Below, in pieces: positions 28,763 through 32,330 of a stretch of 46,515 nt of DNA. The notes beneath the pieces are model-generated. The model made no database searches and was not told the DNA's origin. It saw only the letters and a list, made by a program, of their open reading frames with translations. Position 1 is the first letter of the stretch; each line of letters starts with the position of its first letter. This stretch comes from an uncultured Methylococcus sp. (GTDB taxonomy: Bacteria; Pseudomonadota; Gammaproteobacteria; Methylococcales; Methylococcaceae): positions 1 through 46,515 of the forward strand of contig CAILMG010000073.1 of assembly GCA_903835265.1 (NCBI GenBank). The letters are read 5' to 3'. The translations under genes and the position numbers were made by a program.

Positions 28763-28801
28763 GCCATAAAAAAACCCGGGTAGCCCGGGTTTTTTTATGG
28801 C
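28763..28801. terminator. Perfect 39-base bidirectional terminator palindrome
   Basis: Two perfect 18-base arms (GCCAT, seven A, CCCGGG; then the complement) are separated by TAG. There is a T7 run on either strand. It ends the minus-strand mtoX operon. Confidence 0.9.
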
Positions 28802-29034: not shown

Positions 29035-30951
29035 TCAATGAAAAGTTCCCGATGCGGGGCTGACCTTTCTAAGAGTCTGGCTATCCTCATCGCCAACCGG
29101 CGCACTCCAAGCATCTTCAACCAATAAAGGAACACGAGGACTGGTGAGCGTTTCAAGAAATAAAACCAGCGCCGCCCGTTCTTCAGGCGTCAGGCGAAGG
29201 GGTTTGATCAAGGGATCTAAGGCCTCATGTTGAACGCCGCCCGCCTGATAAAAATCGATGACCGACGGAAGGGTCGGAAGACTCCCATCATGCATGTAAG
29301 GAGCGGTCAGTGCGACGTTCCGAAGGGAAGGGGTTCGATAGGCCCACCGGTCCTTGGGATTCTGGGTCCATTCATAGCCGCCAAGATCAGAAGGTGGAGG
29401 GCCCGATACCGGTCCCAGGCGTTGAGTATTGATGAGAAACGTCACGCCAGGCGCCACCTGAACGGGGGTTTGATCCATGCCAAGGCCCATGCTGGCGCGA
29501 TAGCCAATCCCGGTATTGTGGAGCGCATCATCGGTCAAAAAGGCCACACGTTGGTTGATCAGGTGGCAGCCTGAGCATCCCGCCTGACCCTTAAAAAGAG
29601 CAAAGCCTCGTTGGGCCTCAAGACTAATGGCGCCTGCCTCGTGGCCAAAGTACCAGCGATCAAAAGGCGAATCACCCGCGACCAGGGTCCTCTCATACGC
29701 CGCCAAAGCCTCCCCTACCGTGCTCATATTCGCCGGCTGACCGCCAAAGGCCTTTTCAAAAAGGCCCCGGTAGTCAGGAAGATGCTGCAAGGCCCCCATG
29801 ACGGCGCCCACAGAAGGGTTACCCATCTCGTTTGGCGCTAAAAGAGGACCCCAGACCTGCTGTTCGAGGGCCGTCTCCCGCCCATCATGAAAGAGGATCG
29901 GCCAGTAGGCCGCATTCAGTAGGGTCGGCGCATTCCGGCGAACAGATCGTCCCTCAAGGCCCACCGCCGTCGCCTGCTCTTGACTGGTGAATCCCTGCTC
30001 GGGGATATGACACATCGCACAGGAGATGGTGTGATTCAGTGACAGACGACGGTCATAGAAGAGTTTCCGCCCCAGCGCAATCTTGTCCCGAGTCAAGGGC
30101 TGCTGTGCGGGCACGGGGACCTTCGGAAGCCCAAGCCCTGGGTTCCTTGCAAGAGAAAGAAGATCCTGAGGGTGCCCGCGCCGCTGACTTAAGGCGGCGG
30201 CATGGGTTTCATAATCCGCCGACTCATAGTGCTTCTTATCATCCCCCGCCGCCAAATGGGGAGATACCCCCAATGACGCCGATGGCACTTCCTTCGGGGC
30301 CTCTATCAGAAGCGTCTCAAGATCAGCCATCACTAAATCCGGATGGAGCGCTGACGTGCTATAGATATTCCGTATCGCTCCCTGGTCATCCAAGAGGAAT
30401 AGACGAAGGGCATGAGAAAATCGCTGCCCCTTCGGAGTCTGTTCAGCGTCCAAGGACTGCCCATAGGCCTTCAAAATGGGCTCAAGGTCTGTCTTCGAAG
30501 CGGTGGTCAAAAAATGCCAGTCGGATGCCGCTGCGTTCAACGACTCACCAAAACGCGCCATGACCGCCGGCGTGTCTTTGTCAGGATCAAAACTGAGTGT
30601 CACCAGTCTGACGCGGGCCTTGAGGGCTGGACGCTTCAAAAGGGCCGCCTGAACTTGATGCAGAACCATCGTCGCCATCGGGCAACCTCCGGCGTCATCA
30701 CAGCTGGTATAGATAAAGCTCAAAAGGACCACCCGACCCTTGATCAGGGAAGAGAGCGAGGTGGCCGAACCATTGGATTCAAGGACTCGACCATCGGCAG
30801 CGGGCCCCATCACCGGCAAACGATAGGAACCTGCGGCCGGCGCGGCATAGGGGAGAGGGGAGCTCAAAGCTGCCCCTTCTGAGGGATCGGCGGCACTCGC
30901 CGAAAGCCCCCAAAGAAGAGGCAGGAACCGAAAAAAACCTTTGAGGCTCAA
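29035..30951 (-). CDS. SCO/SenC copper-chaperone domain fused to di-heme MauG/cytochrome c peroxidase
   Basis: A 638-residue exported protein (signal peptide ~1-21, ending SASA). Residues ~45-215 are a SCO/SenC thioredoxin-like domain with copper-ligand candidates Cys84 and Cys90 (YTSCDDAGGCPMA, five residues between them instead of the usual three) and His180 (RFSHALRLFLLD). Residues ~280-615 are a di-heme peroxidase of the MauG/CcpA family, with heme motifs CAMCH (311-315) and CSGCH (459-463) and the APYMHDGSLPTL segment. It starts at TTG overlapping the mtoX stop (TTGA). In known mtoX loci SCO and MauG proteins are encoded separately and are thought to mature MtoX. The frame is open through the join, so this is a true fusion in this sequence. 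Confidence 0.9.
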   Translation of the reverse strand: MSLKGFFRFLPLLWGLSASAADPSEGAALSSPLPYAAPAAGSYRLPVMGPAADGRVLESNGSATSLSSLIKGRVVLLSFIYTSCDDAGGCPMATMVLHQVQAALLKRPALKARVRLVTLSFDPDKDTPAVMARFGESLNAAASDWHFLTTASKTDLEPILKAYGQSLDAEQTPKGQRFSHALRLFLLDDQGAIRNIYSTSALHPDLVMADLETLLIEAPKEVPSASLGVSPHLAAGDDKKHYESADYETHAAALSQRRGHPQDLLSLARNPGLGLPKVPVPAQQPLTRDKIALGRKLFYDRRLSLNHTISCAMCHIPEQGFTSQEQATAVGLEGRSVRRNAPTLLNAAYWPILFHDGRETALEQQVWGPLLAPNEMGNPSVGAVMGALQHLPDYRGLFEKAFGGQPANMSTVGEALAAYERTLVAGDSPFDRWYFGHEAGAISLEAQRGFALFKGQAGCSGCHLINQRVAFLTDDALHNTGIGYRASMGLGMDQTPVQVAPGVTFLINTQRLGPVSGPPPSDLGGYEWTQNPKDRWAYRTPSLRNVALTAPYMHDGSLPTLPSVIDFYQAGGVQHEALDPLIKPLRLTPEERAALVLFLETLTSPRVPLLVEDAWSAPVGDEDSQTLRKVSPASGTFH

Positions 30952-32330
30952 GGTGATTTAGCGAGCGGCTCAACTTGAGGGCTTGCCGCTAGACCCGAAT
31001 AAAGGGCATGGGCACCAAAACGCATTTGGTGAGGCCGGCCGAGCTTCTCTGCGGTAAAGTCGATACTGAACACCGGCTTGAGTTCCTTGCCATTCCATTC
31101 GTAAAGCTTCAGAAACTGTTCATTGTCGGTGCCCTTCTTATCCCAGTTGGCGAGCAGCGAGGACGTGAAATAAAGGCGCTTGCCATCCCAACTCGAGGAC
31201 ACCATGTTGAGCTGGGCACCGATATGTTTCTGGTAAATTTCAACGGGCTTTTCAGGATGCGAGATATCAAAGGCGTGGGTATTCCCGTCCATGAAGGTAT
31301 TCACCCACAAGAGCTTATCATCACTGGAAATCGAGAGATCCACCGGAAGCGGGATCAATTTTGGATCCCCAATATCGGCCACATCCTTAGCCTGCCATTC
31401 GCCTTTGGCATCCTCCTGAATCAACCAGATCTTCGACGTCAGGGCTGTTGAGGTAAAACAGTAAGGATGGGCATCACCCAAGGCGCAACGAATTTCAAGG
31501 GGCGCTCCTGGCACATCAAAGACCTTCTTGGGCTTTCGGGTGTGAAGATCCCACGTCACTATGGTGTTGCCAAAATGCTTCATGGCCTCCGGGTCCTTCA
31601 GCATCTTGCCAAAATCCATCATGTAGTTGTTCCATCCCGTAAAGGAGGAGGTCACCAGGAGGTTCTTGCTCGGTAGCGCCCGAACATCGTAGTTATAGCC
31701 ATCGGCATACTTACCCGTTTTGACGGCGCCCCGGAGGTCGCTGTCCGTCGGCATCCAATGCGTTGCCACGAATTCACCCTCATTGGTGTACTCCACCATG
31801 GCCGTCCTGCCGCCATGATCTTTATTATTCGATAGCCCGGTGATCAGCATACGGCCAGGTAAGGCATAGAGGGAATGGGGTCCGACGACGCCACCGCTGC
31901 GGGCGACAAAATCAGTGATGGTCTTTACGAGCTTCGGCTTTAAGGGGTCCGCCTTCACGTCAAAAACAAAAATCTTGCTGGTATCAAGCCCTGAAGCCCA
32001 GAGATACTGGCGATCATCGGTAAAATCAGAGTGATGCGCTTCATTGCGGCCACCGACCGACACGGCATGAATCACCTTGCCAAATCGTTCAGATTTCGGG
32101 TTAACATCGACGGTGACCAGTTTGTCCTGCTCATCGCCAACCCCTTCGGTACCGAGGGTCCAGACATAGAGGACGTCTTCTTGTCCTGTTATCTTCTTCA
32201 TGTAGGGTGATGCGCAGGTTTCATCCGCCATCAAAGGCGATGACACAAAACCCCCAACCGCCAGCAGCACCATCAGTAGCTTGACGGTCTTCAAGGGTTT
32301 GTCGTTTGATCGATGGAAACGCTTCAACAT
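30948..32330 (-). CDS. mtoX: Exported SBP56-family protein, probable methanethiol oxidase
   Basis: SBP56/selenium-binding family; bacterial members such as MtoX of Hyphomicrobium are copper-dependent periplasmic enzymes that oxidise methanethiol to formaldehyde, H2S and H2O2. The 460 residues carry a signal peptide (VKLLMVLLAVGGFVSSPLMA). SBP56 landmarks follow: AHHSDFTDDRQYLWASGLD, VGPHSLYALPGRMLITGLS, GYNYDVRALPSKNLLVTSS, PLEIRCALGD and WDGKRLYFTSSLLANWD. The His residues that ligate metal in the family are kept. The GGAGAGGAG ribosome site is very strong. The SCO-MauG fusion gene downstream supports the methanethiol oxidase reading. Confidence 0.88.
   Translation of the reverse strand: MLKRFHRSNDKPLKTVKLLMVLLAVGGFVSSPLMADETCASPYMKKITGQEDVLYVWTLGTEGVGDEQDKLVTVDVNPKSERFGKVIHAVSVGGRNEAHHSDFTDDRQYLWASGLDTSKIFVFDVKADPLKPKLVKTITDFVARSGGVVGPHSLYALPGRMLITGLSNNKDHGGRTAMVEYTNEGEFVATHWMPTDSDLRGAVKTGKYADGYNYDVRALPSKNLLVTSSFTGWNNYMMDFGKMLKDPEAMKHFGNTIVTWDLHTRKPKKVFDVPGAPLEIRCALGDAHPYCFTSTALTSKIWLIQEDAKGEWQAKDVADIGDPKLIPLPVDLSISSDDKLLWVNTFMDGNTHAFDISHPEKPVEIYQKHIGAQLNMVSSSWDGKRLYFTSSLLANWDKKGTDNEQFLKLYEWNGKELKPVFSIDFTAEKLGRPHQMRFGAHALYSGLAASPQVEPLAKSP

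Follow-up and report, generated by a model that had tools for sequence, protein, structure and literature searches.

The 46,515-nucleotide contig CAILMG010000073.1 of an uncultured Methylococcus sp. (assembly GCA_903835265.1; hereafter the window, at its full length), whose source bacterium is a probable methane-eater, carries a gene for an exported SBP56-type methanethiol oxidase, mtoX (30948..32330, 460 residues), followed by a single gene (29035..30951, TTG start, 638 residues) whose product joins a SCO1/SenC-type domain to a di-heme MauG/MbnH-like domain. Both genes lie on the minus strand, as do all domains, motifs and residues of the window given by coordinate below. Comparison with relatives singles out one tryptophan of MtoX, Trp233 (31632..31634), which is kept wherever a MauG partner is linked to mtoX and lost where MauG is judged absent, and a CX5C spacing of the SCO cysteines that accompanies the same state. 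On the strength of these sequence comparisons the fusion probably serves to mature periplasmic MtoX, the SCO half handling copper and the MauG half oxidising Trp233.

The covariation was assessed in 173 distinct MtoX scoring above 600 bits, with a partner counted as linked when it lay within 2.6 kb on the same strand. Trp233 is kept in all 110 distinct MtoX with a linked MauG and lost in all 16 judged MauG-less, where His, Arg, Tyr, Lys, Phe or Leu replaces it; the six MauG-less loci in which a SCO gene is present all have CX3C. Seven MtoX have a linked SCO and no linked MauG: six are without Trp233 and with CX3C, and the seventh (genome G1058, L260/L287) has Trp233 and CX5C, with a MauG gene adjoining on the opposite strand. 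Where no partner is linked although the contig has room for one, position 233 is Trp in 33 MtoX and His in four, and where a contig end leaves the matter undecided it is Trp in 13, His in four, Arg in one and Tyr in one; the first four His and these last six non-Trp residues all belong to a single family, f5, of the window's order (Methylococcales). When mtoX has no linked partner in that order, the fusion is often encoded at another place in the genome. Family f5 (10 genomes of one genus) has MtoX, with His at position 233 in eight, Arg in one and Tyr in one, and no fusion was found genome-wide in the 10 genomes at E < 1e-90; its MtoX has retained the putative copper ligands and Trp396 and has lost Cys39 (Pro in nine, unaligned in one). 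Genomes G632 and G598 have no MauG down to E 1e-25. The rule connecting Trp233 with MauG was set from f5 and two MauG-less alphaproteobacteria before annotated plasmids were searched for MtoX. That search matched five records, all of which fit the rule: the Ruegeria pomeroyi plasmid has MauG, Trp and CX5C (1/1), and the plasmid stretches of Skermanella mucosa, S. rosea, Microvirga lotononidis and M. ossetica, in which SCO is present and no MauG occurs within 4 kb of mtoX, have Lys, Lys, Leu and Phe at position 233 together with CX3C (4/4).

Two clades account for the MauG-less MtoX: an alphaproteobacterial one and f5. Parsimony requires two changes of MauG, two between Trp and non-Trp, and seven letter changes at position 233; because these letter changes are found among MauG-less MtoX and none among the 110 with a linked MauG, the constraint on the position seems to be relaxed once MauG is gone. 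On 81 rows, parsimony gives four changes of MauG and three of Trp, and an independent-pairs test yields three pairs, of which two agree and one shows no difference, too few for significance. An explanation of a different kind is that the MauG-less MtoX are simply different enzymes, in which differences of substrate or host went along with changes at Trp233, Trp342 and Met238 and in the SCO loop, loss of MauG being a by-product. It draws on the fact that there are only two clades, of unproven independence, and on the other positions that covary (M238R in f5 and most other MauG-less MtoX, W342F in the alphaproteobacteria); it appears improbable, given that position 233 has taken six different replacements, a sign of relaxed constraint and not of a new role, and that the copper ligands and Trp396 stay fixed.

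Several observations weigh against maturation through Trp233. A single origin of the MauG-less MtoX is not rejected (approximately unbiased test, p 0.347 and p 0.066), so that the 16 MauG-less cases are not 16 independent cases, and the trees suggest at most two independent losses. For Skermanella and Microvirga the scope is the plasmid stretches, and MauG may be present elsewhere in those genomes. Five genomes of the order without a full fusion match keep Trp233: G002, G013 and G456 are drafts of 380–520 contigs; in G032, likewise a draft, the contig ends inside the fusion gene, with the SCO part visible; and in G340 (L220, on one contig) mtoX is shortened by a stop and no fusion was found in the genome. 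The mtoX locus of G340 seems to be decaying. If the drafts truly have no fusion, the rule is weaker than 16/16. Nine of the 10 f5 genomes hold a stand-alone MauG/MbnH-like protein (42–46% identical). Among distant SBP56 proteins without a partner within 1.5 kb, a Trp aligns with Trp233 in 20/20; in a second alignment it does not, and with motifs of SSEW versus SSFTGW the alignment is uncertain. A degenerate second MtoX paralogue (L303 in G1200; Cys39 to Arg, His100 to Gln) keeps Trp233 without a linked partner, and was left out of the 16 because its genome carries the fusion elsewhere. Finally, Ruegeria methanethiol oxidase (MTO) produced in E. coli without MauG is reported to consume methanethiol (PMC10936201), and human SELENBP1 from E. 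coli to do so copper-dependently (PMC10362175); modification is thus not needed for some activity.

The second part of the pattern concerns the SCO1/SenC-type domain of the fusion (30376..30753, residues 67–192), which scores 56.6 bits with PF02630 against a cut-off of 22.8; in fold comparison the model of the fusion also matches 1xzo, a Sco protein. The domain contains Cys84-X5-Cys90 (CDDAGGC, 30682..30702) and His180 (30412..30414), the likely third metal ligand, all three invariant in 30 aligned rows. It thus resembles SCO1/SenC chaperones in its Pfam-level domain and in having two Cys and a distal His, and differs from them in that it is not free-standing and has CX5C instead of CXXXC. The canonical motif is given as CXXXCXnH (PMC9145763), which the spacing here departs from, so that with His180 present the domain is of SCO type, has a non-canonical motif and is not a canonical SCO1. 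The preliminary description of this DNA had called the spacing unusual, which holds for SCO proteins at large and fails for those associated with MtoX and MauG, among which CX5C prevails: it is present in 90 of 91 distinct fused frames (one unread), in split loci including that of Ruegeria pomeroyi, and in the SCO accompanying 109 of the 110 distinct MtoX with a linked MauG (one unread). CX5C as an oddity of the window protein is therefore rejected. Paralogous SCO loci of the order have CX3C in 17 of the 18 retrieved (one unread), the window's own genome included. L179 gave no match with a home-made SCO profile, and its spacing is unread; the script that reads the spacing recognises CX3C and CX5C only, and domains with any other spacing were dropped from the SCO tree. 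In that tree, built without the loop columns, 49 domains make up one starred group, 47 of them with CX5C; its two CX3C members (G632 and G598) are the two without MauG, and the 30 domains outside the group all have CX3C. By these sequence criteria CX5C is a signature of the SCO domains that accompany MtoX and MauG. In another locus (L284, 5764-7803) the SCO domain holds a His- and Met-rich insertion (HSAHEGHDMSGHEGHDMSAM) that resembles an extra metal-binding loop.

The di-heme half (29134..30114, residues 280–606 by match to TIGR04039) passes the Pfam CCP_MauG family at residues 289–438 with 174 bits against a cut-off of 25.6. The top NCBIfam match is MbnH (TIGR04039), which is matched by 30/30 alignment members, yet the score of 237 bits is under the cut-off of 363, and the MauG equivalog (TIGR03791) is likewise missed, with 216 bits against 444. 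Identification as a true MauG or a true MbnH is therefore rejected at family level, and by profile score these two are the nearest curated families. In the phylum, a MauG search gave none above cut-off (0 of 100, with weaker matches in 67), so that the alignment contains no confirmed MauG. The two heme c motifs, CAMCH at residues 311–315 (30007..30021) and CSGCH at 459–463 (29563..29577), have Cys, Cys and His invariant in 30 rows. The best fold match of the fusion is 6e1c, a MauG-like protein linked to copper homeostasis (E 7.9e-16; TM score 0.41 by query length and 0.71 by target), for a model of moderate quality (pLDDT 73, pTM 0.57). With this protein (MbnH) and with MauG the window protein shares a di-heme fold, two CXXCH and a tyrosine near the domain end; it differs from them in falling below both NCBIfam cut-offs, in its N-terminal SCO domain and in His355 (29887..29889). 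The last residue occupies, in alignments, the place of the FWDGR Trp of aligned bacterial cytochrome c peroxidases (CcPs), a Trp that sits between the two hemes; in 91 distinct fused frames the position is His in 74, Tyr in seven, Phe in five, Gln in one and unread in four, and with His there the heme pair is unlike that of a standard peroxidase. Tyr568 (29248..29250), invariant in 30 rows, appears to stand at the position of MauG Tyr294: the match ranges (query 290–569 on MauG 10–295) place it there, Tyr lies on Tyr in the 6e1c alignment, and CcP alignments end or gap at this point. MauG Tyr294 is a heme ligand (distal, of the six-coordinate heme), and CcPs carry Met at its position.

These heme-site features bear on what the MauG half does. 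That it is a peroxidase which clears peroxide made by MtoX and so shields the copper site accords with its membership in the di-heme CcP Pfam family and with the statement that methanethiol degradation yields H2O2 (PMC6548844); such a role has little probability in view of the invariant Tyr568 at the probable place of the CcP Met, of the loss of Trp233 in MauG-less MtoX, which it leaves unexplained, and of a report of no detectable H2O2 from Ruegeria MTO (PMC10936201). The main rival to maturation is electron transfer via Trp233, in which MtoX passes its electrons to the MauG half, with Trp233 as a hopping station from copper site to hemes and the SCO domain engaged in redox control. The same covariation of Trp233 with MauG would be expected of it, and both the presence of two c-type heme motifs and the replacement of the FWDGR Trp by His355 suit it. 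It is nonetheless unlikely, considering that the published MTO reaction uses O2 as oxidant (PMC10936201), that the closest relatives with a name and a solved structure are MauG/MbnH proteins that modify tryptophan or are linked to copper, and that MtoX without MauG keeps its putative copper ligands. The preliminary description had proposed that the fusion couples copper delivery to heme-based oxidation, perhaps in maturing MtoX or in passing on its electrons. The theme itself is likely, with the domains, the intact fusion and the link to MtoX confirmed; between its two variants, the residue covariation fits maturation best, and electron transfer is still compatible.

The presumed target of this maturation is well placed by family. 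MtoX passes the NCBIfam methanethiol oxidase equivalog NF052453 (750.4 bits against a cut-off of 650) and matches PF05694, so that by family score it is a methanethiol oxidase of predicted activity. Its N-terminal export signal (32226..32330, residues about 1–35, before ADETC) is a hydrophobic stretch judged by eye, and in the predicted model nearly all of residues 1–36 have pLDDT below 50; the fusion protein likewise begins with a stretch that by eye resembles an export signal, and both products are probably exported. Published ligand histidines, Trp pair and Cys were mapped onto the window MtoX by constant offset, and the copper-ligand His and Trp pair named in print are all present: His99-His100 (32031..32036; ligands published in PMC5739008), His152 (31875..31877) and His434 (31029..31031), putative copper ligands invariant in 19 rows, Trp233 as the counterpart of Ruegeria Trp223, and Trp396 (31143..31145) as that of Trp386, the latter kept with or without MauG. 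Absence of the copper ligands, which would have undone the preliminary description, is thus not observed. Cys39 in TCASPYM (32214..32216) corresponds to the reactive Cys28 of Ruegeria MTO (TCQSPYM; PMC10936201).

If the fusion matures MtoX, the locus would make a periplasmic copper enzyme together with its dedicated maturation factor. The SCO half would bind or redox-handle copper through Cys84, Cys90 and His180 and deliver it to the histidine site of MtoX. Long-range hole transfer would let the MauG/MbnH-like half, with its MauG-type Tyr568, oxidise Trp233, close to the copper site, by means of peroxide or O2. Trp233 may end up as kynurenine or in some other oxidised form instead of being cross-linked to Trp396, because the latter residue persists where MauG and Trp233 have been lost; this retention, as read from the alignment, speaks against a Trp–Trp cross-link as sole purpose. 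A precedent is found in CorA and MopE, in which a Trp next to copper is oxidised to kynurenine and MauG-like cytochromes are neighbours (PMC3912023); with such a cytochrome knocked out, copper may still be bound, according to work cited in the same source. The window system is like CorA/MopE in setting a copper protein beside a MauG-like cytochrome, and differs in the SBP56 family, in the SCO domain and in that modification of MtoX is only inferred. A fuller version of maturation is offered more tentatively, as a possible one: the MauG half turns Trp233 alone into an oxidised residue (e.g. kynurenine) at the copper site without a Trp–Trp cross-link, the CX5C loop is adapted to the heme enzyme, and MauG-less lineages have dropped both loop and Trp and run a simpler copper-only enzyme. 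The fusion would hold both maturation steps together, and is not essential, because split genes keep the same signatures.

That the two domains belong to one gene is well founded. The stop TGA of mtoX lies within a TTGA overlap (30948..30951) with the TTG start of the fusion gene, whose frame is 640 codons from stop to stop, so that the TTG start stands almost at the open end of the frame. An uninterrupted copy of the fusion, 92% identical, lies beside a 95%-identical mtoX in another genome; full-length one-frame relatives are present in families f1–f4, f7 and f8 of the order, and the 20 best fusion relatives retrieved are all single frames with both CXXCH and CX5C. An assembly artefact, frameshift or base error is ruled out because this intact copy and these one-frame relatives exist. 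The gene order, the shared bases, the three SCO ligand positions and the two heme motifs set out in the preliminary description are accordingly confirmed, its joined reading frame is sound, and the SCO1-SenC and CCP_MauG domains both score above their Pfam cut-offs in the 638-residue product. The closest named mtoX record, among the matches listed, is from a Methylococcus metagenome-assembled genome (95%, L051). Promoter and terminator scans of the window found one promoter (2.6 expected) and nine terminators (4.4 expected), none of which was adopted; a short GC-rich palindrome between A and T runs at 28777-28797, downstream of the fusion gene, looks by eye like a two-way terminator and is absent from the list of the terminator scan.

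The fused arrangement is widespread. In a survey of 251 genomes of the order, with a strong match to MtoX or fusion defined as E < 1e-90, strong MtoX occurs in 168, in 152 of them together with the fusion or its MauG half and in 16 with no fusion match; one of these 16, G532, has a partial MtoX only and stands outside the Trp233 counts. Five genomes of the order have the fusion or MauG half and no MtoX match. Eighty named mtoX loci were kept of at least 575 relatives: within the retrieved stretches 47 show the fused gene, three (L057, L093, L126) a SCO frame cut by the end of the locus, 30 no partner, and none a split SCO/MauG pair. Fusion as the sole state is rejected, as genus g20 of the order has separate genes, six genomes having frames of 424–442 residues that match only the MauG half. 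In g20 loci L160, L212, L213 and L234, SCO and MauG are separate neighbours, whereas most retrieved relatives of the order are fused; Trp233 is kept, as is CX5C (read in L160, L213 and L234), and the arrangement may have arisen when an ancestral fusion was split. Separate genes are also found in alphaproteobacterial and some gammaproteobacterial loci. Further searches with MtoX covered 299 genomes of the phylum (24 with a match) and 385 of the alphaproteobacterial class of G155 (eight with a match), and one of the window's class with the G017 protein as query covered 369 (43 with a match). L227 (G017) and L273 (G1197) each encode a divergent exported SBP that has TCLSPYI and in which Ile stands for Trp396, Glu for Asp215 and Ala for Glu279. 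A CX3C SCO comes directly after it and no MauG is linked, possibly a separate two-gene copper system; both SBP-SCO pairs were left out of the 16 MauG-less cases because Trp233 is not safely alignable (SSW vs SSFTGW). A second, stand-alone MauG-like gene near mtoX, with two CXXCH and more than 520 bits with a home-made profile, lies downstream of the fusion in L276, L284, L296 and L298 and directly after mtoX in L293. A multicopper-oxidase-like gene, named by eye from its translation, lies near mtoX in the fusion-less f5 locus L156 (8021-9799).

The preliminary description had presented the fusion as a departure from SCO and MauG genes that are separate neighbours; this does not stand, and the fusion as a new architecture is rejected, for it is published. 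Many organisms carry SCO1/senC and mauG, or one gene with both domains (as in Methylophaga thiooxydans), in the same locus as mtoX, and MTO maturation, with copper delivery and a tryptophan tryptophylquinone (TTQ) cofactor, has been proposed for such loci (Eyice et al. 2017, PMC5739008); in the 2019 study of M. thiooxydans a SCO1-MauG fusion described in two clusters, induced on dimethyl sulfide, was suggested to process or mature MTO (PMC6548844). The window locus is an additional member of this architecture. It shares with the published cases one locus containing mtoX and a SCO1/MauG gene, with export predicted in Methylophaga, and differs in the new organism, the TTGA overlap and the TTG start; from the split mtoX-SCO-mauG operons of Hyphomicrobium sp. 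VS and Ruegeria pomeroyi, which have the same three functions, it differs in having one partner gene and not two, and R. pomeroyi is like the window in SCO CX5C and a kept MtoX Trp. Several MauG-family proteins of Methylococcus capsulatus are named in PMC4831470, the available text of which has nothing on an mtoX-fusion locus. The CX5C loop and the loss of Trp in MauG-less loci go unmentioned in the available text of PMC5739008 and PMC6548844, and no mention of the loop or the Trp233 covariation was found in the open-access literature, the supplements of the key papers not covered; both look new.

A tryptophan-derived cofactor in bacterial MTO has been proposed since 2017 from the MauG neighbour and conserved Trp residues (PMC5739008). 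The covariation pattern names one residue, Trp233, as the probable target of the MauG half, and argues against a two-Trp cross-link as the only model. The CX5C versus CX3C spacing provides an annotation motif that separates MauG-coupled from ordinary SCO domains, and the MauG-less MtoX of Skermanella, Microvirga and family f5 supply natural controls.

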